NCBI RefSeq assembly: GCF_000015045.1 | Contig: NC_008609.1 | Location: 372,001-436,000 of the forward strand | Direction of reading: 5' to 3' | DNA: 64,000 nt | DNA from: Pelobacter propionicus DSM 2379 | GTDB lineage: Bacteria > Desulfobacterota > Desulfuromonadia > Geobacterales > Pseudopelobacteraceae | Shown: one piece after another, positions 8,244-22,288 of the stretch | How the letters are laid out: each line of letters begins with the position of its first letter | Numbering within the stretch: position 1 is the stretch's first letter | Made by a program: the position numbers and the translations under genes | Notes under the pieces: generated by a model | The model's database searches: none | The model's input: only the letters and a program-made list of their open reading frames with translations | Told to the model about the DNA's origin: nothing

Positions 8244-8669
8244 TCAGAACCTGAGATCCGTTCCCTCAAGGAAATAGAACGGATAGACCATGTTGCTCCT
8301 GCTGTTGGTTGACCGCACGGTATAGGCGAGGGAGATGAGGACGACGCCGTCGTGGATGTTCCCGTCGTCAACGTCGATGCCGTCCAGGATGATGCGCGGC
8401 TCGTAGAAGAGTACGGCCCGGTCGATGGCGTCCTTCAGGGCGGTGACCGTGCTTTCGTTCATCTGCTCGAACATCAGGGCGTTGAGGCCGCAGCCGAATT
8501 CCGGGTGCATGAGCCGCTCACCCGGAATGGTGGAGAGCAGGATGCGCAGGCTCTCCCGGATATCCTCCTCGGCGGCCACCATCCTGACCTCGCAAGAATG
8601 GCGCTGAAACTCCGGTGGAAACCCCCAGCCCCTGCCGAGAAAACCGCCGCTCTCGTGCGCAGAATCCAT
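8244..8669 (-). CDS. eCIS baseplate wedge protein, gp25/GPW family (Afp9-like)
   Basis: This 141-residue protein belongs to the GPW/gp25 family, which seeds sheath assembly at the baseplate. Supporting motifs are GRGWGFPPEF near residue 12, the central EDIRESLRILLSTIPGERLMHPEFGCG block (written in parts: ESLRILLSTIPGER and HPEFGCGLN), then EPRIILDGIDV. 'LxTxxGERxMxPxFGCGL' and 'EPRI' are the gp25 hallmarks. The length is normal for the family. Despite the family's historical 'lysozyme' label, no muramidase active site is expected. The gene lies 9 bp downstream of PAAR and upstream of the large baseplate gene, the usual eCIS order. Confidence 0.9.
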   Translation of the reverse strand: MDSAHESGGFLGRGWGFPPEFQRHSCEVRMVAAEEDIRESLRILLSTIPGERLMHPEFGCGLNALMFEQMNESTVTALKDAIDRAVLFYEPRIILDGIDVDDGNIHDGVVLISLAYTVRSTNSRSNMVYPFYFLEGTDLRF

Positions 8670-8678
8670 CCCGTCCCC

Positions 8679-8981
8679 CTAGCCGCCGATGATCACGGTC
8701 ATGCATCCCATGACGATGCTGCCGCCATGGGCGGTGGTGTCGCCGATCCTGGCTGCCGGTTTGCCGCTGATCAGCACCGTGGCCGACCCCTTCACGATTG
8801 TGTCCGGAGGACCGACGCAGATGCAGCTGTCTCCCATCACCGCCGCGGGAAGCTTCCCTATCAGCACCGTGGCCACGCAGGGGCCGCTGACCGGCCCCCC
8901 CACGTGGGGGATGGGGGAGGGGAAGGCCGGGGTCTGCATGGGGCAGGTATGCATGTCGGTGATTCTGGCAGCCGGCGGCAT
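8679..8981 (-). CDS. eCIS spike-tip PAAR-domain protein, Afp10-like
   Basis: This 100-residue protein is nearly all PAAR domain. It starts MPPAARITDMHTCP and contains HVGGPV, GKPAARIGDTTAHGG and a closing MTVIIGG. The spaced His/Cys residues (H12, C14, H26 region, H near residue 85, C near 92) are consistent with the metal-bound cone tip that caps the VgrG-type spike. There is no C-terminal extension, so it carries no fused effector. It lies 64 bp downstream of the spike gene and 9 bp upstream of gp25. A small PAAR protein encoded separately next to gp25 is the standard arrangement in this class. Confidence 0.9.
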   Translation of the reverse strand: MPPAARITDMHTCPMQTPAFPSPIPHVGGPVSGPCVATVLIGKLPAAVMGDSCICVGPPDTIVKGSATVLISGKPAARIGDTTAHGGSIVMGCMTVIIGG

Positions 8982-9045
8982 GGTGCCTCCTCTCTCTTCA
9001 CGTTGGTTGCGCGGGATTCCCCCGTCTTTTATCCGCAGAATCGGG

Positions 9046-10836
9046 TTAATTGATCATGACCATGGCGCCCTTGACCGTGGTCTGGCCTGAGGCGGAAAGC
9101 TCGGCGCTGGCGCTCCCCTTGGCCGTGAACCCCACATTGGCGCTGTTGCTGATGTTGAGCCCGGTGATCTTGACGTCCGCCTTGGAAGAGATGGCGATCG
9201 CTCCCACGGCATCGATGCTGATCTTCCCCTTGGCAGAGATCCCGATGTCCTTGGGGCTGTCCAGCGTGATGCCACCGGTGCCCAGCTCCACCCTGTTGCC
9301 GGTCTGATCCTGCACGAGGATCTTCTTGTCGTTGTCGCTGAGCACGATGGTGTTGCCCGCCGGGGTCAGGATGGTGACCTCCTTCTTGTCGTCGTCGAAC
9401 TCCACTCTCAGCTTGCTCCTGGTGACGATGGCCTTAGTGAAGTTGTCGGCGGTCAGCTCGTGGGGAGGAGGCCTGCTGCTGCTGTAGAGACTCCCCAGGA
9501 TTACCGGATGGGACGGGTCGTTGTTGACGTACCCCAGCACCACCTCGTCGCCGATTTCGGGTATGAAAAAGGCGCCGATCCCGTTGGATGCGTGAAACTT
9601 TGCCAGCCTGGCCCAGACTCCGTCGGTCTCCGCCTGGAGCACCGGGATGGAGACCTGCACCCGCTGCTCCCCCCCGGGATCCTGGTCCAGTTTCTTCACC
9701 ACCCCGATGTGCAGCCCCTCGATCCCCGGGGTCAGGCCCGACGCCGGCGGGGCCACCAGATCCCGCCGTTCGGCGAACCACTCCCGGGACATGCCGAACT
9801 CGACTTCCGTGGTCCAGTTCCCTTCCCGGATGTCGTGGCGCACCCCGCTGACGAAGAGCGTGCCGTTGAAGCGGTTGCCTACCCCCTCCAGCTTGATGGT
9901 CCCGCCGATCCTGGCCGTGGCGCTCCCCTGGAATTTCATCCTCCCCCTGATCCGCGCCAGGCCGGCCTTCAGCTGCTGCCCAGCTGCCCACTCCTTGAGT
10001 GCCGATCGCTCCATGGTGGCGGATGTCTGCAAGCGGAAGGAGGCCGGTCCGGCAACCCTGGCCAGGGCCTTGGAATCCAGGTCCCCCTGCTGGTTCAGGG
10101 TGGCCGGTTGCGCCTTCTCCTCCGCGACAGCCTGTTTCTTCATGTCCCAACAGACGCTGGTGACCGAAACGAGCTGGCTGGTTGCGTCCAGGTCGGCGCT
10201 GAATTCGATCAGGTCCTGGCCGTAGCCGACCGCGAGCAGCGGCGGGACATCGACCTGCGGCGCCTTGACCGATACCCTGCCGTCATCGGCCATGACCAGC
10301 ATCCCGTTGACTTCGGCCCGGGAGAGCATGAAGTCCCAGTCGCTGCAGTAGTACTGCACCAGCTCCCGGTGCTGGGTGGCGGTTGCCGCCACGTCGGCGG
10401 AGAGCCCCCCGTAGGAAGCGATCAGGGTGGAGATGATGTCGCTGTCCCTGGAGTCGACGTAGGTGGCGTTTCTGCGGCCGATGGTCATGGCCACCGCCTT
10501 GTCGCGGCATTCCACCTCCAGCCGCGAGTAGTTGTCGCCGCTGATCCTGATCCCCTGACTGGTCACGATGCCCTGGAAGATGGTCTGCTCCTGGTTGTCG
10601 TACCCGGCGGCAATCCGGATCTCCCTCCCCGGCTTGAAGGCGTCGGAGTTGCTGACCGGGAAGTCCTGCTCGGGCATGTCCCCGTCCAGAACCGTGATCC
10701 TTGCCGCCGGAACCCGGTTGATGCTCTTGTCCACGGTCACGGAGATGATCTTCACGCTGTCGGCAACCTGTGCGCCGTTACTGTACAGCGTCAGCCTGAC
10801 GACTCCGCTTCCGTCTCTGCGCGGCGAATCGGCCAT
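9046..10836 (-). CDS. eCIS spike/hub protein, VgrG-like (Afp8)
   Basis: This 596-residue protein fuses an N-terminal hub domain (gp27-like, about residues 1-360), a gp5-like OB-fold region around residue 375 (GLHIGVVKKLDQDPGGEQRVQV, then VWARLAKFHASNGIGAFFIPEIGDEVVLGY in parts), and a C-terminal repetitive beta-helix spike ending in alternating small and hydrophobic residues (KGKISIDAVGAIAISSKADV and onward). 'FIPExGDEVVLGYxxxDPxHPVILGSLY' is diagnostic of VgrG/Afp8 proteins. It has no extra toxin domain. The start ATG at 10834-10836 lies 3 bp after the LysM gene stop. It would trimerise to form the central spike topped by the PAAR protein. Confidence 0.92.
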   Translation of the reverse strand: MADSPRRDGSGVVRLTLYSNGAQVADSVKIISVTVDKSINRVPAARITVLDGDMPEQDFPVSNSDAFKPGREIRIAAGYDNQEQTIFQGIVTSQGIRISGDNYSRLEVECRDKAVAMTIGRRNATYVDSRDSDIISTLIASYGGLSADVAATATQHRELVQYYCSDWDFMLSRAEVNGMLVMADDGRVSVKAPQVDVPPLLAVGYGQDLIEFSADLDATSQLVSVTSVCWDMKKQAVAEEKAQPATLNQQGDLDSKALARVAGPASFRLQTSATMERSALKEWAAGQQLKAGLARIRGRMKFQGSATARIGGTIKLEGVGNRFNGTLFVSGVRHDIREGNWTTEVEFGMSREWFAERRDLVAPPASGLTPGIEGLHIGVVKKLDQDPGGEQRVQVSIPVLQAETDGVWARLAKFHASNGIGAFFIPEIGDEVVLGYVNNDPSHPVILGSLYSSSRPPPHELTADNFTKAIVTRSKLRVEFDDDKKEVTILTPAGNTIVLSDNDKKILVQDQTGNRVELGTGGITLDSPKDIGISAKGKISIDAVGAIAISSKADVKITGLNISNSANVGFTAKGSASAELSASGQTTVKGAMVMIN

Positions 10837-10839
10837 GAT

Positions 10840-11517
10840 CTACCTCAGGGGGGGGAATCGCAGCCTGGTCCCGGGCTTGAGATCCCGGAAGCAGGTCAGG
10901 TTGTTCACGCGGGCGACCTCGGTGTAGTAGGAACAGTCCCGGTAGATGCGGTAACAGAGAAGCGGCAGGGTGTCGCCTGCGCGGACTTCGACGATGTGAC
11001 TTAAGTCCGGAGATGTTCTGGCTGCCCTCAGACTCTCCTCCTGGCTGCTCACGTAGCGGACGAAGCCGAGGGAGATCCTGGCCCGCAGCGGCTCGCCCCC
11101 GGGTTTGAAGAGGGTGTACTGGATCGACATGGACTGGAGCCTGCCGGTGAAGGAGAGGCTGCCCCACAGGAGCCGCACGATGCGCGGTTCGTGCTCCCCG
11201 CCGTCATAGTCGTAGATGATACTTTTCAGTTTCTTGATGCCGGCCTTGACGTCGTACACCTTGGCGTCCGGTGTGGGGCGTACGGCACCGGTGCCGTCGA
11301 GCATCAGTTCGAAGCTGATCGTCTCCGAGCCGGTCGAGTTGAACTTGGACTCGGGGGCAGCCTGCCCCTGGACCCTGGTCTCGCTCTGGCTGATGGAATG
11401 ACCGTGGGTATAGGACGACGGGTTGAGCATCACCTCGAATTTTGTCGACTGGTCGACGGTGACGGAGCCGTTTCTGTTCCGTGTGCATGGCGATATGGAG
11501 AGCATTACCTTTGCCAT
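10840..11517 (-). CDS. eCIS LysM tail/baseplate protein, Afp7-like
   Basis: This 225-residue protein has an N-terminal domain with the phrase FEVMLNPSSYTH at about residue 28, typical of Afp7-type proteins, and a C-terminal LysM-like module (HIVEVRAGDTLPLLCYRIY ... VNNLTCFRDLKPGTRLRFPP). Afp7/gp53-like proteins join the hub to the baseplate wedges. The LysM fold here is a structural clamp rather than proof of peptidoglycan binding. Its ATG follows directly on the stop of the 56-residue Afp6-like gene with no spacer, so the two are probably translationally coupled. Confidence 0.85.
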   Translation of the reverse strand: MAKVMLSISPCTRNRNGSVTVDQSTKFEVMLNPSSYTHGHSISQSETRVQGQAAPESKFNSTGSETISFELMLDGTGAVRPTPDAKVYDVKAGIKKLKSIIYDYDGGEHEPRIVRLLWGSLSFTGRLQSMSIQYTLFKPGGEPLRARISLGFVRYVSSQEESLRAARTSPDLSHIVEVRAGDTLPLLCYRIYRDCSYYTEVARVNNLTCFRDLKPGTRLRFPPLR

Positions 11518-11688
11518 TCATCGCTCCCGTCGTGCGTTCAGCATGTCCCTGATCATCTGCCGGCACTCCTCAATGACGTCCGACTTCAGCTCCTCGAGTC
11601 GCCCGGGGGCGAATCCCTTCGTTCTCCCCGAGCCGTTATCCGCCTGCACGGCGCAGCGTATGGTCATCTGCCTGACTTCGATGGTCAT
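11518..11688 (-). CDS. eCIS small protein, Afp6/DUF5908-like
   Basis: This 56-residue ORF begins MTIEVRQMTIRCAV and ends in a charged helix (CRQMIRDMLNARRER). The 'P/T-IEIRQMxIxxxV ... helix' layout matches the short Afp6/DUF5908 proteins found between the second tube protein and the LysM protein in eCIS clusters. The exact role in the particle is not firmly known to me. It starts 4 bp after the stop of the tube-initiator gene, and its own stop abuts the ATG of the LysM gene. Its position and the coupling on both sides make it a real gene despite its size. Confidence 0.75.
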   Translation of the reverse strand: MTIEVRQMTIRCAVQADNGSGRTKGFAPGRLEELKSDVIEECRQMIRDMLNARRER

Positions 11689-11692
11689 GGGG

Positions 11693-12166
11693 TCACAGCT
11701 CCCGTTCCGCCGAGCTGTAGCTGATCTCTATTTTCTCGATGGCGAGCTCGTTCTTTGTCGAATTGAAGCTGTCCACCTCCCATTTGACCGGGAAAGCGTT
11801 GGCAAAGGACCAACTCCGGACCGGGTCCCCCTGCTCGTTCAGCAGGAAGACCTTGAGCAGGCGCGGCTGGATCGGAAACGAACACTCCTCGATGACGTTC
11901 TTGCACCAGCGTGCCAGCGGTGAAGCGGTGGTGGCGATGCCCCGCTTCAGAACCAGGCGGGGATGCTTGACCCCCTTGGGCAACTGGTAGTAAAAGCGGT
12001 TCTCCCCTCCCTCGACGTACTCCTCGGTTTCCAGCTCCAGGCTGATCCCGCTGACCTCCTGGAACGAGCTGTCGATCGTCCCGGGAGTCCGTTCGAAGGC
12101 CACCTGAAAGTAGAACGCCGGGGGGCTGTAGCCGTAGGGTCCCCATACTTTCGCCGGATCGGGCAT
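11693..12166 (-). CDS. eCIS tube protein, Afp5-like (tube initiator)
   Basis: This 157-residue protein belongs to the gp19-like tail-tube family. It has YFQVAFE near the N-terminus, SFQEVSGISLELETEEYVEGG, KHPRLVLKRG and a final IEKIEISYSS strand, the same plan as its upstream neighbour. The divergent second tube paralogue placed before Afp6/Afp7 usually forms the first inner ring on the spike (Afp5 role), which I infer here from position. A TRP-rich RWCKNVIEE segment follows the KRG motif. It lies 66 bp downstream of the main tube gene. Confidence 0.85.
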   Translation of the reverse strand: MPDPAKVWGPYGYSPPAFYFQVAFERTPGTIDSSFQEVSGISLELETEEYVEGGENRFYYQLPKGVKHPRLVLKRGIATTASPLARWCKNVIEECSFPIQPRLLKVFLLNEQGDPVRSWSFANAFPVKWEVDSFNSTKNELAIEKIEISYSSAEREL

Positions 12167-12232
12167 GGATACTCCTTCGCACCGTGCGCCGGAAGGAGAA
12201 CTGCACGCTCCACCGGTTTTCGATGGTCACTC

Positions 12233-12691
12233 TCATTGGTTGGCGATGGTGATCCCCTCGTGGGCGATCTCTATTGTTTCGATGGCCGCCTCGTTGCCGT
12301 CGGCCTTGAGATCCGTACCGGTGATTTTGGTCGGCCAGGCATTGGCAAGGGTCCAGACCATGGTGGGGGCGCCGGATTCGTCCAGCAGGCTGATGGTGAC
12401 CGGCAGCCGCTTGATGGTGTTCATCTTGATCTGGTTGAACCAGTTCCAGAACTTGTTGTCCGATTTGAAGATCCCCTTCTTCATGGTTACGTTGCCGGAC
12501 TTCTTGATTCCGGGCATCTTGATCGTGGAGAACACCGGGCTGTCGCCGTGCCGGTACTCGATCGGCTGGGCCTCGATGTCGAGCCCCGAGACCTCTTGGA
12601 ACGACATCACCTGGCTGTCCCACTTCACCTGGAAGTAGAATTTCGGCAAGGGCCATACGTTCGTTGATTGTTTGGATCCATCGTCCGCCAT
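12233..12691 (-). CDS. eCIS major inner-tube protein, Afp1-like
   Basis: This 152-residue protein is the main tube subunit. Motifs are PLPKFYFQVKWD, MSFQEVSGLDIEAQPIEYRHG, VTMKKGIFKSDNKFWNWF and a C-terminal AAIETIEIAHEG. The 'FxVxxxxxxxFxEVSGLxxExxxxEYRxG' block is the hallmark of Afp1/gp19 tubes. Subunits stack as hexameric rings around the tape measure. It follows the sheath gene after a 114 bp spacer, the longest gap inside the operon. I see no clear terminator in that gap, though a GC-rich inverted segment could tune relative sheath and tube expression. Confidence 0.9.
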   Translation of the reverse strand: MADDGSKQSTNVWPLPKFYFQVKWDSQVMSFQEVSGLDIEAQPIEYRHGDSPVFSTIKMPGIKKSGNVTMKKGIFKSDNKFWNWFNQIKMNTIKRLPVTISLLDESGAPTMVWTLANAWPTKITGTDLKADGNEAAIETIEIAHEGITIANQ

Positions 12692-12805
12692 ATCGTGCCT
12701 CCGTCATTGAAATTGTTGGTTTTTCGTCGTGCCCGGGCCCATGGGGCGCCTCCGCCAGGTGCGACTCGCTGCCCCGCTCCGGCCGGAGATGCCGTTCTTA
12801 ACCGG

Positions 12806-14374
12806 TTACGACTTCTGCATCTGCTGCTGGAAGGTGATCTCGATGAACTCCGCCGGACGCATGACCGCCACCAGGACGGTGACCCGCAGGATCCCCTCCA
12901 GGATGTCTTCGGGGGTCATGGTTTCTCCCAGGCCGCAGAACACGGCGAAGGCGTCGTCGGGACTCGCTCCGGCGAGACCGCCCCGCTTCCAGATTCCGGT
13001 CAGGAAATTGCGGATCATGCTCTTGATGGTCACCCAGGTGGTGGCCACGTTGTTTTCGAACACATACGCCTTGCTCGCCAGTTTGATCGATTCCTCCAAC
13101 ATGATCATGGTTCTGCGCACATTGACATAGCGCCAGTCCAGGCTGTTGCCGTCCAGGGTGCGCGCCCCCCAGACCAGAGTCCCCTCGCCGATGAACGAGC
13201 GGATCGCGTTGATCGACTTGCCCTGGGTGGTGACGTTCAGGTCTTCCTGTTCGTCGTGGGAGATGTTGACCGCCGGCGATACTACGGAACTGAGGCTGAC
13301 GTTGGCGGGCGCCTTCCAGACACCGCGGGAGTCATCCACCATGGTGTAGATTCCGGCCATCGCCGCGGCCGGCGGCATCAGGTTTAGTTTGCGTCTGATT
13401 TCCATGAGGATGGTGTTGAACAGCGGGCTGATGGCGATCAGGGTCTTGTTCAGCAGCTGCTTATGGCCCGGAATCTCGTCCGCCGCGATGTCGCTCCATT
13501 CACTGGAGATGGCGGCTATGGCGTCGGCCCGCTGGATCTGTCTGGATTTCGCGTTTTTCTCCGCCGGGGGATCCGACTCCTCGATCGTCGGGAGCGGATC
13601 GGGGATGGCGAGTTCGTTCTTGAGCAGGGTCTGCAAAAGCTCTCTGGTGGAGAGGTTCTCGTAGGAGAGATCCTTGTCCTGAACGATGGTGGTGTTGACC
13701 CAGGGATAGTAGGCCGCGGCATAGTCCAGGTAGTTGATTCCCAGGGCGCCGCGGAAATTCTCGATGCAGTCGCCGGCGGGGTCCTTGCGGTCCTTGAACC
13801 CGTCCCAGATATCCAGGATGGCGATCCTGTTCTTCATCTTCCCGCCGCAATGGGCCAGGGCCGCCTGCTGCACGCTGACGCACTCTTCGGCCGATGCCAG
13901 CAGCACCGCGTCCGGAATCAGAACCATGGTCGGCTCCTGTTCCTTGATCAGGGTGTCGATGCCGCCGGTCAGCCGGTCCGACTCGATGGCTTCTCCGTAG
14001 GTTCCCACCGAGACGATATAGCAGGGGCCGCCGCCGTTCTGGTAGAAGAGCAGCATGCTGTTGTAGAGCAGGTATCTGCCCGACTCCTGGCCCAGGAAGT
14101 ACTCCTTACCTCCCTGGGAAAACGACGGGGCGTCGCCGGGAACCGTGGCCGCTTCCCCGATGGCGAACAGAGCCTTCGGGCCGAATCCGAAGTAGTCGTG
14201 AAATTCGGCCATGGAACTGATCCGCCAGGGCTTGTTCCCCAGCAACTTGCCCTTGTTGTCGGCCTTCTCGGTGTAGCCGACGAACGCCGGTACGGCGGTG
14301 GCTACCTCCACCACCGAGTTGGGGAAGGCATTCTTTTCAACGACATACACACCGGGGGTTTTCATCAGAGCCAT
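12806..14374 (-). CDS. eCIS contractile sheath protein, Afp2-4-like
   Basis: This 522-residue protein begins MALMKTPGVYVVEKNAFPNSV, the conserved start of phage-type sheath proteins whose N-terminal arm hooks neighbouring subunits. The C-terminal domain is strongly conserved: INAIRSFIGEGTLVWGARTL, DWRYVNVRRTMIMLEESI, VRP-like VMRPAEFIEITFQQQMQ at the end. The middle domain (about residues 90-300) is variable and surface exposed. Only one sheath gene is present, whereas Afp has three. The start is supported by a strong ribosome-binding site (AAGGAG, 6 bp upstream). Contraction of this polymer drives the tube through a target membrane. Confidence 0.93.
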   Translation of the reverse strand: MALMKTPGVYVVEKNAFPNSVVEVATAVPAFVGYTEKADNKGKLLGNKPWRISSMAEFHDYFGFGPKALFAIGEAATVPGDAPSFSQGGKEYFLGQESGRYLLYNSMLLFYQNGGGPCYIVSVGTYGEAIESDRLTGGIDTLIKEQEPTMVLIPDAVLLASAEECVSVQQAALAHCGGKMKNRIAILDIWDGFKDRKDPAGDCIENFRGALGINYLDYAAAYYPWVNTTIVQDKDLSYENLSTRELLQTLLKNELAIPDPLPTIEESDPPAEKNAKSRQIQRADAIAAISSEWSDIAADEIPGHKQLLNKTLIAISPLFNTILMEIRRKLNLMPPAAAMAGIYTMVDDSRGVWKAPANVSLSSVVSPAVNISHDEQEDLNVTTQGKSINAIRSFIGEGTLVWGARTLDGNSLDWRYVNVRRTMIMLEESIKLASKAYVFENNVATTWVTIKSMIRNFLTGIWKRGGLAGASPDDAFAVFCGLGETMTPEDILEGILRVTVLVAVMRPAEFIEITFQQQMQKS

Positions 14375-14392
14375 ACGGTTTCTCCTTTGCGC

Positions 14393-15232
14393 TTACGAGT
14401 TGATGAACAGTTCCGATACTGCCGCTTCGTTGCCATCGATCGTTTCCCGATCAATTCTCCTCGCCGGGGCGACCGGGAGCCGCCTGATGAGGGTGCGGCC
14501 GCTGTCCCCCTTCAGCTCGCGCAGTTGGAAGCAGCAGCCTGATGACTGGCGCAAGGGGATGGGGAGGGTGGACCTGAATACGGATGCCCGGCGTCCGTCC
14601 GGCAGCACTTCCTCTCCCCTGTGCTCGAAGTCCACCTCGCCATCCCGGTCGACGATGACAAGGTCCCGTCGCGCCAGTTCTCCCAGAATGTAGTACTTCC
14701 AGTAGGTTTCCCTGGCCTGGAACCTCAGATACCACGCTCCCTGCACTCCCTGCTCTCCCCTGAGGCGGATCACGCAGAGCGGTGGCATTGCCCGATCCCG
14801 CGGTTCGACCAGGTGTGCCAGGGGGGGGGCATCCAGACGCTGGAAATCCCGGGGCGCGACGTATTCGCCGGTGTGCAGTCTGATCCGCCCGGATTCCTCC
14901 CTGACGGCGCCCCGGCCATCCAGGTACAGCAGGGTGCCGTTTTTGCGCCAGGGTGGGGCGGTGTAGACGCCGAAGTAGGGGTCTCGGACGAAGACCCTGA
15001 ACGTCAGGTCCGGTGGCGGCTCGCCTGCTGTCGCGGCGGAGGCGAAGAGCCGGCGCCACTCCTCGTCCGCGAACAGGTGGACGCCGTTGGCCGTCCCCCG
15101 GGCCAGCAGCCCTCTCCTGTTCATCAGCGATGCGGTGGGAGAGGGGAGGGTGAATTCGAGTCCGGAACAGATGCTTCCCGGAAAAAAGGTGTGTTCGACG
15201 CTGATGCTGGCCAGCAGCTGGTAGGGTCCCAT
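14393..15232 (-). CDS. conserved eCIS-associated protein of unknown function
   Basis: This 279-residue protein lies between the tube terminator and the sheath. I do not recognise a Pfam domain. There are no signal peptide, membrane segments or catalytic motif. Recognisable features are an N-terminal beta-rich stretch (VEHTFFPGSICSGLEF), a middle FRVFVRDPYFGVYT, then RETYWKYYILGELARRDLVI followed by FRSTLPIPLRQSSGCCFQLR. The second half resembles proteins I recall from other eCIS loci at the same position, and a cap- or collar-adaptor role next to Afp16 is a guess based only on neighbours. It ends 18 bp before the sheath start and begins 18 bp after the Afp16-like gene. Confidence 0.6.
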   Translation of the reverse strand: MGPYQLLASISVEHTFFPGSICSGLEFTLPSPTASLMNRRGLLARGTANGVHLFADEEWRRLFASAATAGEPPPDLTFRVFVRDPYFGVYTAPPWRKNGTLLYLDGRGAVREESGRIRLHTGEYVAPRDFQRLDAPPLAHLVEPRDRAMPPLCVIRLRGEQGVQGAWYLRFQARETYWKYYILGELARRDLVIVDRDGEVDFEHRGEEVLPDGRRASVFRSTLPIPLRQSSGCCFQLRELKGDSGRTLIRRLPVAPARRIDRETIDGNEAAVSELFINS

Positions 15233-15250
15233 GGTAGTCCAGCCCCTGGA

Positions 15251-15820
15251 TCAGTGGTATGCGGAGGCGCGCGTGGAGGTTACCGCCGATGCCTTGCTCA
15301 GGATATCCGCCGAGTCGTACGCCACCATCCTGACCCGGTACAGGACCGACGGCAGGTACTTTCCGCTGAGGATGCTCCAGAGTGAACTCAAATCCCTGAT
15401 GTTCAGGTTTTCCATATCCAGAATCAGCCGGTCGATGCGGCTGTCCAGCTCGGGGCTGTTCTGGTGGTCGAACACCGGGTTTCTCTGGAAGAAGCCGATG
15501 GCGCTGGAGAGAAACTTCAGCGCCTCAGGATAGTTGCTGTTGCCGAAATGGGCGGCGACCATCAGGAAGAAGTTGAGAAACAGGGGAGGCGGGCTGATGA
15601 CGGTTTCGTGGGTCAACGATGTCTGCTGGCCCCGGCTTGCCAGTGTCTCCTTCTCGATGTTGACCAGAAAGAGCACCAGCCTGTTGGTGATCCGGGGGGC
15701 AAGGGAGCCGTCCTGCTCCAGGATATTGGATACGGCAACCGCCTCTTCGCTCAGGTCGAAATATCTCCTCAGGTACTGGTTCAGCTGGCCGGAGATGTGG
15801 AGTATCGCCGTGTCGATCAT
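15251..15820 (-). CDS. eCIS tube/sheath terminator, Afp16-like (DUF4255)
   Basis: This 189-residue protein is the first gene of the eCIS operon. It begins MIDTAILHISGQLNQYL, and the line ISPPPLFLNFFLMVAAHF plus the YPEALKFLSSAIGFFQRNPVF segment are typical of DUF4255/Pvc16-N proteins, which cap the distal end of the tube and sheath and set final length with the tape measure. Length is normal for the family. It starts about 195 bp downstream of the LuxR-type regulator's stop, in an AT-rich stretch (15880-15930) where the operon promoter probably lies, although I could not assign convincing -35/-10 boxes. Confidence 0.88.
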   Translation of the reverse strand: MIDTAILHISGQLNQYLRRYFDLSEEAVAVSNILEQDGSLAPRITNRLVLFLVNIEKETLASRGQQTSLTHETVISPPPLFLNFFLMVAAHFGNSNYPEALKFLSSAIGFFQRNPVFDHQNSPELDSRIDRLILDMENLNIRDLSSLWSILSGKYLPSVLYRVRMVAYDSADILSKASAVTSTRASAYH

Positions 15821-16014: not shown

Positions 16015-16665
16015 CTACCTGATGTCCAGGTTCGCCGCGTGCCGTACCAGATCCATGCGGCAGTGGGCGTTCAGTTTCCCCTGCAGTCTGGCCCGGTGAC
16101 TCTCGACGGTACGCACGCTGACGAAGAGAAGCTCGGCGATCTGGCGATTGGTATGCCCCTGGGCGATGTAGCCCAGTATCTCTGCTTCCCTGCGTGTCAG
16201 CGGCTTCCGGGGAGGGACCCTGGCCACGGCCGGAGATGTCTGGCCGTACAGGAGGCAACGGGTCATGGAAGGGTGGATGTAGAGGTCCCCGCGCCTGATG
16301 GCGTGAATGGCGTTGATCAGTTCCGATTGCGCCGCCCGGGTGGGGAGATAGCCGGAGGCGCCGGCCCGGATGATATCCCGGGCGAATGTGGTATCCTCGC
16401 AGCTGGTTACCAGGATAACGCCGATGTCGGGATGCTGGGCTTTCAGTCGTTTGGTGACCCCGATGCTGGCCTCTCTCCTGTTCAGTACAACCATTAGAAC
16501 GATGTCCGGCTCAAGTCGACCCGTTAGATAGATCGTTTCATTCTCGTCCAGCGCTTCTCCCACGACATCAAGGTTCGGCTCTGTGTGCAGCAACTCGCGC
16601 AATCCGGCGCGCAGCAGGATCTGGTCGCTTGCGACCAGAATTCCAGTAGTGTCATTGTCTTTCAC
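16015..16665 (-). CDS. LuxR/NarL-family regulator with degenerate receiver domain
   Basis: This 216-residue transcription regulator has an N-terminal receiver-like domain (residues 8-125) and a C-terminal LuxR helix-turn-helix (LTRREAEILGYIAQG, RTVESHRARL). Aligned by eye with NarL, the phospho-acceptor Asp59 is Val59 (EPDIVLMVVL), the first acidic-pocket Asp is Ser13 (VASDQ), and the conserved Lys is Thr (GYLPTR). It therefore probably cannot be activated by phosphorylation in the standard way. I choose the GTG at 16663-16665 because AAGGGG lies 6 bp upstream. An in-frame ATG at 16737 lacks a ribosome-binding site. It points into the eCIS operon, so it may control it. That link is inference. 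Confidence 0.85.
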   Translation of the reverse strand: MKDNDTTGILVASDQILLRAGLRELLHTEPNLDVVGEALDENETIYLTGRLEPDIVLMVVLNRREASIGVTKRLKAQHPDIGVILVTSCEDTTFARDIIRAGASGYLPTRAAQSELINAIHAIRRGDLYIHPSMTRCLLYGQTSPAVARVPPRKPLTRREAEILGYIAQGHTNRQIAELLFVSVRTVESHRARLQGKLNAHCRMDLVRHAANLDIR

Positions 16666-16913
16666 GGTAATCCCCTTCAGTGCGTCCCCATGCCTTGTTT
16701 CCGGTTTCGGGACGGGGGCGCTGTGGCTGCACAACATGATAGCACTTATTTATGAAGCATGGTTCATGGTGCCGGTTTTTGCCGATGCCGTCATGAGAGT
16801 GCCCCCGCATCGATGGAGGTGAGGCTGCACCGCGGGAAGGGGGCTCCCGCTGCCGTGGGTGAAGCGAAACGGTGGTATGCTTCAAAGGAGGCGCGGAAAC
16901 GGGGGAGGAAAGC

Positions 16914-19229
16914 ATGAAAGCGGATATGGCGTGTGGCGACAGGCTCCTGGGGATCGTGCTCGATTCTCTCCCGATTCCGGTGTTCTACAAGGATGGCCAG
17001 GGGCGCTATCTGAGCTGCAACTCTGCCTTCGAGGATTTCTTCGGCATGCCCAGGCGGCAGCTGGCCGGCACGGTGGTGGCCGATGTTTTCGACAGGGATT
17101 CCGCCCGCTTGTTCCATGAGATGGATTTGCGGCTGTACCGTAATCCTGGCAGGCAGGTGTACGAGTGCAGGATCGCCGATTTCAGGGGCCATCAACGGGA
17201 TGTTGTCGTGCACAACGCCACCTTTCCCCATTCCGGTGGCAATGAAACCGGGATCGTTGGTGCTATCCTGGATGTCACCGAGCTGAAAACGGCGGAAAAG
17301 AGCCTGGCCGGGGCGACGAGCCTGTTCCATCGTCTGTTCGATGCCATTCCCGATCTGCTCTCGGTGGTGGACCGGGATATGAGGATCGTCTACAGCAACT
17401 GGCATGGCGGGCATGAGTACGTCGCCGAACAGATCCGCTCCCGCACCCCCTTCTGCTACGACGCCTACTACCCTGGCCAGGGAGAACCGTGCGACCCCTG
17501 CCACCTGCTCGAGGTCTTCCGCACCGGGAGGTCGCTGATCACGGAGAAGCACAATCCGCACGTCGGCTATCAGGAGATCCATGCCTTCCCGGTGCGCGAC
17601 GAATCCGGCGCCATCGTCATGGCCGCCGAATACCTGCGCGACATAACCGCCCGCAAGGAGGCGGAACATGCCCTGCGCCAGGCCAATCACATGCTGGAGG
17701 CGATCATCAATGCCTCGCCCCTGGCCATCGCGGCCTTTGACACCGATGTCAGGCTGACCCTCTGGAACGATGCCGCCGAGGCCATGTTCGACTGGAAGAA
17801 GGAGGAGGTGCTCTCCAAGCCCTACCCCATCATTCCCGAAGACCGCATGGAGGAGGTGCGCAACAACATCAGGCTGATGCACGAGGGGGAGGTGTGCCGC
17901 TCTCTGGAGACGCGCCGCAAGCGCAAGGATGGCTCGCTGGTGGATGTGAGCCTCTCCACCGCAGTCATGTGCGGACCGGACGGGGCGGTGATCGGCTACA
18001 TGTCCATCATGTCCGACATTAGTGAGCGCAAGCAGGCGGTGCAGGCGCTCAAGGAGAGCGAAGAGCGCTTCCGGCGGATCTTCGAGGAGGACGAGGATGC
18101 GGCCCTGGTCCTCACCCCGGGGACCTTTTCCATCGTGGATGCCAACGTGGCTGCGGTACGCCTCTCCGGCTATTCCAGGAGAGAGCTCAGGAAGAACACG
18201 CCGGCCCTGTTTCTGGGGGCGGAGGAATTCGCCAGGTTCGGGGAAACCTTCGGGGCGCTGGGCGGGGAAAGCCCATCCCACGGCAGGCCGCGCAGGATCG
18301 ACCGCATGGATGTGGTTGACCGGAACGGCAAGCAGATGGTGACGGCGGTGCGGGGGAGGGTCTTCACCTCCCAGGGCATCCCCTACCTTTATTGCACCTT
18401 CAGGGATATCACCGAGCAACTGAGCATCAGGGAGGAGCGCAGGGGCTTCGAGGAAAAGCTGATGCAGGCCAACAAGATGGCGGCCCTGGGGACCCTGGCT
18501 TCGGGCATTGCCCACGAGATCAACAATCCCAACAACTACATCCTTTCCAGCACCCAGTTCCTGCTGGAAGCCTGGAAGGACATCGAATGGATCCTGCTGG
18601 AGTACGGCAGGGACAACGGTGACTATACCCTGGGAGGTTTGCCGGACGCCGAGGCAATTGCCGTGATTCCCCAGCTTCTGGCCAGCCTGCAGGAGGGTTC
18701 CGGACGCATACGGAACATCGTGGAGAATCTGAAGAGCTTCGCGCGCCAGGAAGACCGGCCCTGCGACGCCATGGTGGATGTGAACGTCGCGGTGCGGGCC
18801 GCCATGAACCTGCTGGGAAACCAGATCCACAAACATACCGACAGCTTTGTCTGCGATCTGGATGAGGGGGTGCCCTCCGTTCAGGGGAGCATGCAGCAGA
18901 TCGAGCAGGTAGTCATCAACCTGACCATGAATGCCCTGCAGTCGCTGCCGTACAAGAAGTGCGGAGTTTTCATCAGGACCTTCCATGACCGGGAAACGCG
19001 CCAGGTGGTCATCCAGGTCCGTGATCAGGGGAGGGGGATCCCGCCGGAGCTGCGCAAGCGCATCATGGAGCCATTTTTCACCACCAAGCAGGAGAGGGGG
19101 GGGACGGGGCTGGGCCTGTCCATCTGCTGCTCCATCGTCAAGAAACATCGCGGCACGCTGGACTGCCAGCCGTCCGCCGAAGGGGGCACGGTTTTCAGCG
19201 TCAGGCTGCCCGCCTCGGGAGCCGTGTGA
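16914..19229 (+). CDS. hybrid multi-PAS sensor histidine kinase
   Basis: This 771-residue soluble kinase has four PAS domains (about residues 10-125, 135-250, 255-380 and 385-510), a HisKA dimerisation helix with phospho-His534 in GIAHEINNPNN, and a C-terminal HATPase domain (VINLTMNALQSLP N-box, DQGRGIPPEL, GGTGLGLSIC). No transmembrane segments or receiver domain are present, so it senses a cytoplasmic signal. The second PAS carries a Cys cluster (CYDAYYPGQGEPCDPCHLLE), seen in many PAS domains of metal- or redox-associated kinases. The ATG at 16914 has GGAGG 5 bp upstream, so the earlier ATG at 16872 is less likely. It overlaps the response regulator start and is surely its cognate kinase. 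Confidence 0.9.
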   Translation: MKADMACGDRLLGIVLDSLPIPVFYKDGQGRYLSCNSAFEDFFGMPRRQLAGTVVADVFDRDSARLFHEMDLRLYRNPGRQVYECRIADFRGHQRDVVVHNATFPHSGGNETGIVGAILDVTELKTAEKSLAGATSLFHRLFDAIPDLLSVVDRDMRIVYSNWHGGHEYVAEQIRSRTPFCYDAYYPGQGEPCDPCHLLEVFRTGRSLITEKHNPHVGYQEIHAFPVRDESGAIVMAAEYLRDITARKEAEHALRQANHMLEAIINASPLAIAAFDTDVRLTLWNDAAEAMFDWKKEEVLSKPYPIIPEDRMEEVRNNIRLMHEGEVCRSLETRRKRKDGSLVDVSLSTAVMCGPDGAVIGYMSIMSDISERKQAVQALKESEERFRRIFEEDEDAALVLTPGTFSIVDANVAAVRLSGYSRRELRKNTPALFLGAEEFARFGETFGALGGESPSHGRPRRIDRMDVVDRNGKQMVTAVRGRVFTSQGIPYLYCTFRDITEQLSIREERRGFEEKLMQANKMAALGTLASGIAHEINNPNNYILSSTQFLLEAWKDIEWILLEYGRDNGDYTLGGLPDAEAIAVIPQLLASLQEGSGRIRNIVENLKSFARQEDRPCDAMVDVNVAVRAAMNLLGNQIHKHTDSFVCDLDEGVPSVQGSMQQIEQVVINLTMNALQSLPYKKCGVFIRTFHDRETRQVVIQVRDQGRGIPPELRKRIMEPFFTTKQERGGTGLGLSICCSIVKKHRGTLDCQPSAEGGTVFSVRLPASGAV

Positions 19230-20647
19230 TGAACGGCCCCTGCGGAAAGATCCTGCTGGTGGATGACGAGCAGAGCATCCTGCTCACCTCGGGCACCCTG
19301 CTGCGCAGTGCCGGCATACGTGACGTGCTGACTCTTGACGATGCCAGAAAGGTGCTTCCTCTGCTTGAACGGGAACGGGTGGACGTGATCGTCCTGGACC
19401 TGTTCATGCCCTTTGTTTCCGGGAAGGAGTTGCTGGCGGAGATCGCCCAGGAGTATCCCCAGATCCCCCTGCTGGTCATGACCGCAGCCGATGAGCTGGA
19501 AACTGCGGTGGAGTGCATGAAGGCCGGTGCCTTCGACTATCTGGTCAAGCCGGTGGAACGCTCGCGCTTCATCTCCAGCGTCACCAAGGCCTTGGAGATC
19601 TGCAGCCTCAGGAAACAGATGGACGATCTCCGGGATCACCTGCTGCATGGCAGGTTGGAGCAGCCCTCGGTGTTTTCAGCCATCATCACCGCCAGCGAAA
19701 AGATGACCACTATCTTCCAGTACGCGGAGGTGGTGGCCCGTTCCAGCGAGCCGATGCTGATCACCGGCGAGACCGGCGTGGGCAAGGAGTTGGTTGCCAG
19801 GGCGGTGCATGATGCCAGCGGACTAAAGGGGAGTTTCGTGCCGGTGAACGTGGCAGCCCTGGATGACGCACTGTTCTCCGATACACTGTTCGGGCACCGC
19901 AAGGGCGCCTTCACCGGCGCAAGCACACCGCGGGAGGGGATGATCGCCCAGGCCTCCGGCGGTACGCTGCTCCTGGATGAGATCGGGGACCTGAGGCAGC
20001 CGTCCCAGGTCAAGCTCCTCAGGCTCTTGCAGGAGCGGGAGTATTACCCCGTGGGTTCCGATGTCCCCCGCAAGAACAACGCCCGCATCATCGCCGTCAC
20101 CAACCGCTCCCTGCGGGACATGGTGGCGGCCGGCGCGTTCCGCAAGGACCTCTACTATCGCCTCTGCGCTCACCATGTGGAGATTCCCCCCCTGCGCGAG
20201 CGGCGGGAAGATCTCCCGCTGCTTCTGGATCACTTCCTGGAGAAGGGCTCCCTGGCCTTGGGCGTAAAGAAGCCGGCGATTCCCCCCCAGTCGCTTCCGC
20301 TGCTGGCCTCCTATTCCTTCCCTGGCAATGTGCGGGAACTGGAGGCCATGGTGTGCGATGCAATTGCCCGCCACCGTTCGGGCATGCTCTCCCTGGACAG
20401 CTTCAGGCGCTGCATGCGCGAGGGGCAGGCCATGGGGACACAACCGGGCGCCGAAGCGGCGGCATCCCGGCGGGCGTTGTGGGATCAGTTTTCCGCGCTT
20501 CCTTCCCTCAGGGAGGCGGAGAGCTTTTTGATCAGGGAAGCCCTGAAGCGGTCGGAGGGAAACCAGGGTATCGCCGCGGCGCTTCTGGGAATCTCCCGCA
20601 CCGCCCTGAATAAACGGCTGAAACGGGAACCTGGCCTGGTCCCCTGA
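19229..20647 (+). CDS. sigma-54-dependent response regulator (NtrC family)
   Basis: This 472-residue activator has a receiver domain with phospho-acceptor Asp57 (VIVLDLFMP), an AAA+ sigma-54 interaction domain with Walker A GETGVGKE at 180-187 and GAFTGA at 226-231, the C-terminal FPGNVRELEAM motif, and a Fis-type helix-turn-helix at the end (RSEGNQGIAAALLGISRTAL). It is complete and should activate RNA polymerase-sigma54 when phosphorylated by the kinase encoded just upstream. The ATG shares bases with the kinase stop (TGATG). Directly after its stop lie two inverted repeats and a sigma-54-like promoter, the likely targets. Confidence 0.93.
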   Translation: MNGPCGKILLVDDEQSILLTSGTLLRSAGIRDVLTLDDARKVLPLLERERVDVIVLDLFMPFVSGKELLAEIAQEYPQIPLLVMTAADELETAVECMKAGAFDYLVKPVERSRFISSVTKALEICSLRKQMDDLRDHLLHGRLEQPSVFSAIITASEKMTTIFQYAEVVARSSEPMLITGETGVGKELVARAVHDASGLKGSFVPVNVAALDDALFSDTLFGHRKGAFTGASTPREGMIAQASGGTLLLDEIGDLRQPSQVKLLRLLQEREYYPVGSDVPRKNNARIIAVTNRSLRDMVAAGAFRKDLYYRLCAHHVEIPPLRERREDLPLLLDHFLEKGSLALGVKKPAIPPQSLPLLASYSFPGNVRELEAMVCDAIARHRSGMLSLDSFRRCMREGQAMGTQPGAEAAASRRALWDQFSALPSLREAESFLIREALKRSEGNQGIAAALLGISRTALNKRLKREPGLVP

Positions 20648-20650
20648 CCC

Positions 20651-20668
20651 CTGTGCTTTTTTTCACAG
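20651..20668 (+). promoter_or_regulatory. Inverted repeat, candidate activator site 1
   Basis: CTGTG-N8-CACAG is a perfect 5-bp inverted repeat with an 8-bp T-rich spacer. It starts 4 bp after the response regulator stop codon and lies about 160 bp upstream of the candidate sigma-54 promoter, the normal distance for an enhancer-type site. The binding protein is inferred to be the adjacent NtrC-family regulator. Confidence 0.5.
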
Positions 20669-20737
20669 CAGGGACAATCGCCACAGCCCCGTCGGTTCCC
20701 CTGCCGCCGGCATCGGCGCGGCTCCGTTCGCCGGCGA

Positions 20738-20753
20738 TGTGCTCTTTTTCACA
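20738..20753 (+). promoter_or_regulatory. Inverted repeat, candidate activator site 2
   Basis: TGTG-N8-CACA repeats the core of site 1, with nearly identical spacer (GCTCTTTTT against GCTTTTTTT). The two centres are 86 bp apart, close to eight helical turns, so both would face the same side of the helix. This spacing and sequence match supports a paired enhancer for one regulator. Confidence 0.5.
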
Positions 20754-20815
20754 CCCGTTCCGCTGCGCCGAGCCTGTAATGGCCCGAATTGCGGCGTGAT
20801 TGTTTTTGGGGAAAG

Positions 20816-20831
20816 CGGCACGGCTTGTGCT
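20816..20831 (+). promoter_or_regulatory. Candidate sigma-54 promoter of the 74-residue protein gene
   Basis: CGGCACGGCTTGTGCT has GG at 20817-20818 and GC at 20829-20830, exactly 10 bp apart, and GGCAC in the -24 element. The -12 element is TGTGC rather than TTTGC. The predicted start of transcription is near 20842, giving a leader of about 208 nt. The two upstream inverted repeats and the adjacent sigma-54 activator strengthen the call. Confidence 0.5.
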
Positions 20832-21049
20832 TTTATGCAGGGTACATCCTGAACGAACGCATTCTCCGCCATGAGAGAAACCTATGTGTGACGCAACAGG
20901 GCTGACATCGGACAGTGAGGCTTCGTATCAGTCGTTTTTGCGAGTACATTCATCAGCGAGGGGGTGAGAGCGTCTTTTTATTGCATGCGTGCTGGCCCGG
21001 ACAGTGGTCTGTTTTTCATAACAATTCCCTTGCACAGGAGGATATCACC

Positions 21050-21274
21050 ATGGCAACCACGAAAAAGATGGTTGATGCAATTCCTTCCCCCGTCGCGCTG
21101 ATGGGGATCGCTTCACCGGAACTGGTCGACGATGAAATGAAAATGAAGGCGCGCGGCACGAAAAGCCGCGGTAACGGCAAGGCGCTGTCCAAGGCCGCGT
21201 GCAGCACCATCTATCAGTCCCATCAGTGTGATATGGCTGTTACGGATGTTGATCCCAAGATCGTTCTTCTCTGA
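21050..21274 (+). CDS. 74-residue protein of unknown function
   Basis: This small ORF begins MATTKKMVDAIPSPVALMGI after a strong ribosome-binding site (CAGGAGG, 7 bp before the ATG). It has no signal peptide or membrane segment. The N-terminal third is hydrophobic and Pro-containing, the centre is rich in Lys, Arg and Gly (MKARGTKSRGNGK), and the C-terminus holds two Cys in ACSTIYQSHQC followed by an acidic tail ending DPKIVLL. I do not recognise the family. It is the only gene behind the sigma-54-type promoter next to the two-component system, so it is its most likely target. A peptide precursor, a small regulator or a particle-associated protein are all open. No peptide-modifying enzyme is nearby. 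Confidence 0.6.
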   Translation: MATTKKMVDAIPSPVALMGIASPELVDDEMKMKARGTKSRGNGKALSKAACSTIYQSHQCDMAVTDVDPKIVLL

Positions 21275-21583
21275 TTCGTTACCGCAGCGAGAACCGGTAT
21301 TCATGACAGGCGAGCCAGGGAGGCGGGCCGCGATTCTTCCGACAGGGGATCACGGCCTGCTTCGCGTCTGGGATCCGGGCAATGGCGCGCCTCCCGCCGC
21401 CAGTTGGACTCCACTACCAGCAGCATCTGCTTTCCATCTCCTCCCGTCGAGCCCCATCCAGCATGCTGAGGCATGTGCGCTGGCCTGCAGCCACGGATGT
21501 TTCGCAAAAACAGCCCATTATTTCGTTTGACTCACAAAGGGGAAACAAGGTAGGTTGAACTCCCACTACTCCGGAGTTTCCGC
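21275..21583 (+). other. Intergenic region before plsC
   Basis: This 309 bp stretch shows no supported gene. A weak promoter-like pair (TTGACT at 21527-21532, TAGGTT at 21551-21556, 18 bp spacer) lies upstream of plsC. A short open frame (21303-21530) exists but has no ribosome-binding site and unconvincing composition. Confidence 0.3.
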
Positions 21584-22288
21584 ATGGTTCGCGCGTACCT
21601 GTTTCTGTCGCTGTTTATCCCATTCACCTTTTTCTGCGCGCTGAGCGCGCTGCTTGGTACGCTGCTGGATGCCAGCGGCAGGGTCTTTTCCGCCCATGCC
21701 CGCTTCTGGGGGCGCGGCTCCCTTTTTCTGGCCGGTACACGGGTCAGGCTGACCGGTGTCGAGCATCTTCCTTCCGGGCCGGTCATTTTCATGAGCAATC
21801 ACCAGAGCGGCTTCGACATACCGACCCTGCTGGCGGTTCTGCCGCTGGAGACCTGCTGGATCGCCAAGAAAGAGCTGTTCGACATTCCGGTGTTCGGGAG
21901 CGCCATGGGGCGCGGCGGCTATATCCCGCTGGACCGTCGCGATGCCCACCGGGCATTGAAGAGCCTGGAGATGGCCGTCAAGGTCGTCCGCTCCGGAAGG
22001 AGTCTGCTCATTTTCCCCGAGGGTACCCGCTCCATGGATTTTCGGCTGCTCCCCTTCAAGCGGGGCGGCTTCAAACTTGCGCTCCAGGCTGGAGTGCCGG
22101 TGGTACCGCTAACCATCAACGGCAGCGGCCGGGTGAATCCGGCTGGCAGCATCCGGCTCTACCCCGGCCGGATTTCCGTTACCCTGCACCGGCCGATCAT
22201 GCCGCCAGCCGGTTTTTCTCGTGCCCAAGCCGAAGTCCTGTTGCGGGAACGGGTGCATGATGCCATTTCATCGGTGCTGGAGATCTGA
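21584..22288 (+). CDS. plsC: 1-acyl-sn-glycerol-3-phosphate acyltransferase
   Basis: This 234-residue enzyme transfers an acyl group to lysophosphatidic acid to make phosphatidic acid in membrane phospholipid synthesis. An N-terminal hydrophobic segment (residues 3-25) anchors it to the inner membrane. The catalytic NHxxxxD motif is NHQSGFD with His73 and Asp78. The substrate-binding FPEGTRS motif and the VPVVPLTING block follow, in the usual order. Length is normal. It is followed 3 bp later by a small membrane-protein gene and probably co-transcribed with it and the next two genes. Confidence 0.92.
   Translation: MVRAYLFLSLFIPFTFFCALSALLGTLLDASGRVFSAHARFWGRGSLFLAGTRVRLTGVEHLPSGPVIFMSNHQSGFDIPTLLAVLPLETCWIAKKELFDIPVFGSAMGRGGYIPLDRRDAHRALKSLEMAVKVVRSGRSLLIFPEGTRSMDFRLLPFKRGGFKLALQAGVPVVPLTINGSGRVNPAGSIRLYPGRISVTLHRPIMPPAGFSRAQAEVLLRERVHDAISSVLEI

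Follow-up and report, generated by a model that had tools for sequence, protein, structure and literature searches.

A sigma-54 two-component circuit of Pelobacter propionicus that probably retains its alcohol dehydrogenase gene as a small N-terminal fragment

Activators of the NtrC type are phosphorylated by a partner kinase, bind upstream of their targets, and open sigma-54 promoters by DNA looping. Alcohol dehydrogenase has precedents for such control in two described systems: DVU2394 of Desulfovibrio vulgaris, a sigma-54-dependent two-component regulator that was mapped by DNA affinity purification-chip (DAP-chip) to the adh operon DVU2405-2397 (PMC3333781; PMC4641369), and AdhR of Clostridium beijerinckii, a sigma-54 activator that has several sites upstream of its targets, adhA1 and adhA2 (PMC7017808). 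Here we describe a locus of related design in a 64,000-nucleotide stretch of the Pelobacter propionicus DSM 2379 genome (NC_008609.1, positions 372,001 to 436,000; called the window below), where a sensor kinase, an NtrC-type regulator with predicted upstream sites, and a predicted sigma-54 promoter precede an open reading frame (ORF) of 74 codons. In the portions of those accounts available to us, both precedents also differ from this locus: the validated DVU2394 site is a direct repeat and its target is an enzyme operon, a comparison that holds at the superfamily level only, and AdhR has three sites, enzymes as its output, and no mention of the term two-component.

We consider it probable, on balance, that this locus is a cassette for an iron-containing alcohol dehydrogenase (Fe-ADH) whose enzyme has been reduced to a remodelled N-terminal fragment and kept in that form. 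The original prediction, which was made from the letters of the window, had described a kinase, an NtrC-type regulator, two TGTG-N8-CACA sites, a -24/-12 element, and a 74-codon ORF in that order, and all of these parts were located (Table 1). The kinase ORF may start at ATG 16914 or GTG 16872 and ends at 19229. Pfam recognizes three PAS stretches in it at E 0.01, and the fourth one that had been counted is likely, although it has no score of its own. It is 76% identical to its counterpart in a second genome of the genus (G001) and 37 to 53% identical to kinases that adjoin Fe-ADH genes, while the regulator is 79% identical to that of G001, 74% to that of G114, and 70% to that of G131 (by alignment; 71% in the genome search), the last two lying outside the genus. 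Both ORFs are open and conserved in the window genome and G001, and motifs typical of functional proteins are found in kinase and regulator alike. AGGAGG stands immediately 5' of the small ORF.

Table 1. Features of the locus and of its surroundings, with positions counted from the first nucleotide of the window
Feature	Position	Strand	Basis
Sensor histidine kinase, three to four PAS + HisKA + HATPase_c	16914..19229	+	Domain-family matches; H, N, and G boxes as strings
NtrC-type response regulator: receiver, sigma-54 AAA+, Fis-type helix-turn-helix	19229..20647	+	Domain-family matches
Upstream activator site 1, TGTGCTTTTTTTCACA	20652-20667	+	Predicted; 4-7 nt past the regulator stop in 4/4 close orthologues
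Upstream activator site 2, TGTGCTCTTTTTCACA	20738-20753	+	Predicted; exact second site also in G131
Sigma-54 -24/-12 element, CGGCACGGCTTGTGCT	20816-20831	+	Predicted; 10/12 consensus letters
74-residue protein, probable reduced and remodelled Fe-ADH N terminus	21050..21274	+	Profile, start-anchored, and tblastn comparisons; no Pfam or PDB match
1-Acylglycerol-3-phosphate acyltransferase, plsC-like	21584..22288	+	Domain match; directly next gene in the window genome and G001
LuxR-type response regulator between injection system and kinase	16015-16737	-	Domain matches
Extracellular contractile injection system genes (gp25-like, hub, tube, sheath, Pvc16)	8244-15820	-	Domain matches

In a search of 147 genomes, with at most 11 candidates scored per genome, the best matches to the regulator outside its own genome were those of G001, G114, and G131, with the next among the matches listed reaching at most 63%. 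No further close orthologue stood above the cut-off in a search of 141 genomes of the order, and a scan of genome contigs with the regulator alignment, which used common receiver-domain stretches, gave 52% at best among the matches listed. When the neighborhoods of the top 31 regulators of the hit list (about 56% identity and up) were surveyed, an Fe-ADH gene was found within about 5.5 kb of 17, downstream on the same strand for 14 of them and on the opposite side for G132_C33a, G120_C7, and G132_C55. The remaining regulators comprise 2 with the small ORF, 9 with neither (among them G128_C75, whose contig breaks off 0.3 kb downstream), and 3 at contig ends, which leaves an Fe-ADH neighbor for 17 of the 26 assessable regulators of related genomes. 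At the two loci whose regulators are nearest outside the genus, those of G114 and G131, a 387-residue Fe-ADH stands behind the equivalent site and promoter. The regulator tree agrees with this picture, as the small-ORF pair (support 99/96) joins G114 (97/88) and G131 (100/99) and is nested among Fe-ADH-linked regulators, the larger Fe-ADH-linked part being supported at 87/88 only.

The histidine kinase-response regulator-Fe-ADH cassettes of the order (for example, L082, L083, L223, and L090) resemble this locus in their kinase and regulator families and in the layout of site and -24/-12 element, and L082 and L083 also contain the very site of this locus. They differ in their output, which is an Fe-ADH of 387 residues, near a Phenol_MetA_deg-type protein, where this locus has 74 residues. 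An orthologous NtrC-type regulator, a cassette-type kinase directly upstream of it, and an activator site and -24/-12 element after it are all found at this locus, with 74 codons only where the intact Fe-ADH would stand behind the promoter. The same arrangement of regulator, site, promoter, and small ORF, which had been proposed as something to look for in relatives, recurs in G001. The window genome has three Fe-ADH genes, plus a more distant fourth, and contains a second cassette with a 58% identical regulator and an Fe-ADH. The Phenol_MetA_deg-type protein that adjoins the Fe-ADH in the cassettes has about 298 residues (L082 11018-11911 and equivalents; the family was tested for one). No description of this sigma-54 Fe-ADH cassette was found in the portions of the literature available to us, which is not proof of absence.

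A -24/-12 match scoring at least 9 is present in 15 of 19 leaders that precede an Fe-ADH or the small ORF, compared with 1.0 expected per shuffled set, and scores of at least 10 are expected 0.12 times per shuffled set of 19 such leaders. The element CGGCACGGCTTGTGCT has the GG-N10-GC core with consensus flanks, and its start-to-start distance from site 1 is 164 to 170 nt in all four close orthologues (the window genome, G001, G114, and G131). TGTG-N8-CACA is found in 8 of the 19 leaders. The two sites of the window had been described as matched repeats eight helical turns apart, and they do lie 86 bp from start to start, or 8.2 turns at 10.5 bp per turn; the phase is not kept among relatives, since the distance is 89 bp in G131. 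Site 1 recurs in all four close orthologues, as does a CACA half site 18 bp past it, but the exact second site is present in two of the four, G001 and G114 lacking it. Four leaders of Fe-ADH cassettes in a sister subclade (L085, L090, L222, and L224) have a TGTAAAA-type palindrome in place of TGTG-N8-CACA, and the regulator family therefore seems to have switched its site between subclades.

Across the 4.24-Mb genome, plain TGTG-N8-CACA occurs at 20 places, compared with 15 for a reversed-pattern control. The refined site TGTGCYNTTTTTCACA matches exactly at 2 places, both at this locus, with one mismatch at 0 places, and with two mismatches at 16 places (18 matches in total; control, 9). The form TGTGCYNTTTNTCACA matches exactly once in G001, once in G114, and twice in G131; each of these matches lies at this locus, and the less related G130 and G120 have 0. 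With one mismatch it is found at other loci of G001, G114, G131, G130, and G120 in 1, 1, 1, 2, and 4 places, respectively, a frequency similar to that of the control (1, 2, 2, 0, and 4 matches). As the refined motif was derived from these very sites, the result means that there are no other strong matches and is not an independent discovery. Two TGTGAA-type palindromes lie 98 bp apart on another contig (G000:C1:169848 and 169946), with no -24/-12 match of at least 9 within 260 bases.

The leader between promoter and small ORF (20842-21049) is about 150 bases longer in the window than in relatives, the distance from element to ORF being 234 compared with 78 in G001, 62 in G114, and 60 in G131. 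At 20998-21016 it contains a small hairpin that, with its T run, resembles a terminator, and attenuation is possible. An RNA element in this region was considered and dropped, since no Rfam family was found at E 0.1 in 20600-21700.

The small protein itself resembles the N terminus of Fe-ADH. With a two-row profile of the small proteins, the best match in the 141 genomes of the order, after the two small ORFs themselves, was the Fe-ADH of G120:C24 (E 4.4e-7, residues 1 to 53), and the eight best further hits include three cassette Fe-ADHs (4.4e-7, 0.011, and 0.06), with the other five at 0.022 to 0.059. In a start-anchored gapless comparison with the best Fe-ADH over the first 32 residues, the window copy scored 54 and the G001 copy 74, while 506 other ORFs with a Shine-Dalgarno sequence scored at most 15 (18 of 524 had been removed beforehand for an Fe-ADH-like motif). 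The best start-anchored score was reached by 0 of 20000 shuffles and the mean over ten Fe-ADHs by a fraction of 0 to 0.0012, one of 11 Fe-ADHs having been omitted from these tests for its four-residue N-terminal insertion. By tblastn, the G120:C24 Fe-ADH found both copies in a database of the two leaders (G001, 3e-7; window, 7e-4), and a search of the whole G001 genome with the Fe-ADH N terminus recovered the G001 small ORF at 5e-5. With a profile of Fe-ADH N termini, the G001 protein scored 12.6 bits, above all 9799 scored shuffles.

Both small proteins share a five-residue insertion before the end KIVLL, which in a multiple alignment falls on the Fe-ADH strand preceding FDGAEPNPT, and because insertion and end are common to the two, they speak for a single truncation in the common ancestor of both ORFs. 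In Fe-ADH numbering, the small protein stops at about residue 69, short of the GGGSSHD stretch, which we take to be part of the nucleotide- and iron-binding region, and the nucleotide- and iron-binding parts are absent from it; as its end precedes them, the predicted 74-residue product cannot be the enzyme. No further Fe-ADH pieces were found by tblastn on the coding strand between the small-ORF stop and plsC, and the small protein had no match among plasmids. On these comparisons it is a homologous fragment of Fe-ADH and not a member of the PF00465 family.

The G001 ORF has the same 74 codons, aligns without gaps, and shares 34 identical residues (46%). At 44% nucleotide divergence the pair has no indel, and the identities at the three codon positions are 48, 44, and 35 of 75 codons (stop included). 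The proportions of synonymous and nonsynonymous differences (pS and pN) are 0.67 and 0.37, and the corresponding rates (dS and dN) are 1.64 and 0.50. In simulations without amino-acid selection, run under six settings, the observed pS - pN was reached in 0 to 9 of 1000 runs and the observed count of 34 identical residues in 0 or 1, and the chance that both frames stayed open is about 0.055, indels not being counted. In our reading, the small ORF is under purifying selection that is weak but real. Since 17 of the last 31 residues are invariant, as against 17 of the first 43, though the first part is the most Fe-ADH-like, the fragment appears to have constraints of its own. The features conserved between the two copies include IYQxHxCD and the KIVLL end.

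Several results weigh against this explanation and are given here with the alternatives that they favor. The main rival, which we judge unlikely but well worth weighing, is that the Fe-ADH was lost, leaving the small ORF as a decaying 5' remnant behind a circuit that is idle or serves something else. The lack of catalytic parts fits such a relic, as do a hydrophilic stretch that replaces the Fe-ADH strand KALLVTD in both copies and an alignment-free AlphaFold prediction from the single small-protein sequence (predicted local distance difference test [pLDDT], 51; predicted template modeling score, 0.18). The ORF was found in two genomes only, and its dN/dS ratio of 0.31 exceeds those of five neighbors (0.09 to 0.22), which indicates weaker selection, although dS is near saturation and the ratio is rough; the dN/dS pairs are 0.14/1.23 for the regulator, 0.15/1.11 for the kinase, 0.16/0.75 for plsC, 0.18/0.86 for the TPR gene, and 0.06/0.65 for RNase J. 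Against the relic, the length, insertion, and KIVLL end are the same in both species, and the absence of indels, the codon pattern that neutral simulations seldom reach, the low chance of two open frames, and the retention of kinase, regulator, site, promoter, and Shine-Dalgarno sequence all argue for the retained fragment instead.

A small protein of other descent that took over the place of Fe-ADH behind the promoter is improbable in our view, even though several null results point that way. Neither Pfam nor NCBIfam has a match for the window copy at E 0.01, a Pfam search up to E 10 returned 0 families and no Fe-ADH domain (PF00465) for either small protein, and a PDB profile search did not recover Fe-ADH, its best hit being at E 0.33. 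The window copy is also weak when scored alone: it reached 6.6 bits with the profile of Fe-ADH N termini, under the best shuffles (9.5), and was not listed at E 0.001 in the search with the Fe-ADH N terminus. It also counts against our main explanation that G114 and G131 have, at their loci, Fe-ADHs of a different subtype (about 65% identical to that of G120) from the one that the small protein resembles most. On the other side, the Fe-ADH alignment begins at residue one, is mostly gapless, and involves a protein encoded where relatives have their Fe-ADH. An unknown or independent origin was therefore set aside on the Fe-ADH type of the circuit and the N-terminal likeness.

Equally improbable is that the real output is plsC and the following gene or genes, reached by read-through, with the small ORF as a leader. 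A simple scan found no forward terminator in 21274-21584 and no sigma-70-type promoter in 20600-21700, so that a transcript from the -24/-12 promoter may run on into plsC, and plsC comes next in both congeners. The gaps before it measure 309 and 232 nt, however, the G114 promoter precedes an Fe-ADH and a MetA-type protein rather than plsC, and the small ORF is itself under selection. A TTGACT-bearing stretch is common to the two plsC leaders (seen by eye only). Slightly less credible still is that the main targets of the regulator lie elsewhere, for example, at the intact Fe-ADH genes, with the small ORF as a by-product. This would accord with the Fe-ADH genes of the genome and with a weak -24/-12 match within 260 bases at 6 of 28 other site loci, but the refined site, exact or with one mismatch, is found at no other locus, the second cassette has its own regulator, and two refined sites combined with a promoter occur at 0 of the 28 other loci (5 of the 20 TGTG-N8-CACA places fall outside this sample). 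The idea of a dedicated circuit thus stands insofar as the genome has one strong site cluster, at this locus; control of the small protein alone does not follow, as the simple scan located neither a forward terminator nor a sigma-70-type promoter ahead of plsC.

A role in the adjoining extracellular contractile injection system, as first suggested from its adjacency, can practically be dismissed: its genes are confirmed, but Pvc16_N, present in the window genome, is found in 0 of the 3 other genomes with the circuit (G001, G114, and G131), the congener thereby contradicting the link, the system is encoded on the opposite strand, after a LuxR-type regulator, and the genes upstream of the kinase in G001 are different ones, molybdate-transporter-like (translations read by eye). 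The accessory role was rejected, leaving the system as a neighbor only. A second Pvc16_N place exists in the same genome (G000:C3:1962317).

The computation supports the parts of the circuit, the homology to the Fe-ADH N terminus, a truncation common to two species, and purifying selection. If the locus is a cassette with a retained enzyme fragment, an Fe-ADH gene would have been cut to about its first 69 codons in the ancestor of the genus while its control circuit was kept. The kinase, probably via its PAS domains, would sense a signal linked to alcohol or redox state, which is probably of the same kind as that of the cassette kinases because the kinase resembles them, PAS part included. It would phosphorylate the regulator, which would then bind the TGTGCYNTTTTTCACA sites, loop to the -24/-12 promoter, and switch on a sigma-54 transcript with the 74-residue protein as its first gene. 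We think that the small protein most likely acts by binding another protein, and the intact Fe-ADHs of its own cell are the first candidates.

Fe-ADHs are oligomers, with solved relatives in the PDB, and microProteins are known from eukaryotes. Like the small protein, a microProtein is a short derivative of a larger oligomeric protein that exists as a separate gene; microProteins bind their parent protein, which for the small protein is a candidate role only. We tentatively suggest, as an idea with more chance of being wrong than right, a bacterial microprotein that enters intact Fe-ADH oligomers, or touches their regulator, and lowers or re-routes alcohol oxidation upon the signal. In the portions of the literature available to us, nothing was found that deals with small proteins derived from truncated enzymes or with microproteins of bacteria, and nothing useful on Fe-ADH domain swapping; neither is proof of absence.

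Pelobacter propionicus lives on alcohols, and if it does make such a microprotein, a circuit that formerly made the enzyme would now make its modulator. More broadly, the locus may be a case in which one can trace how an enzyme gene shrank and its whole signalling circuit was kept, and it offers one orphan small protein a concrete origin. Whether such remnants take on a regulatory function or simply disappear slowly can also be tested cleanly here by genetics.

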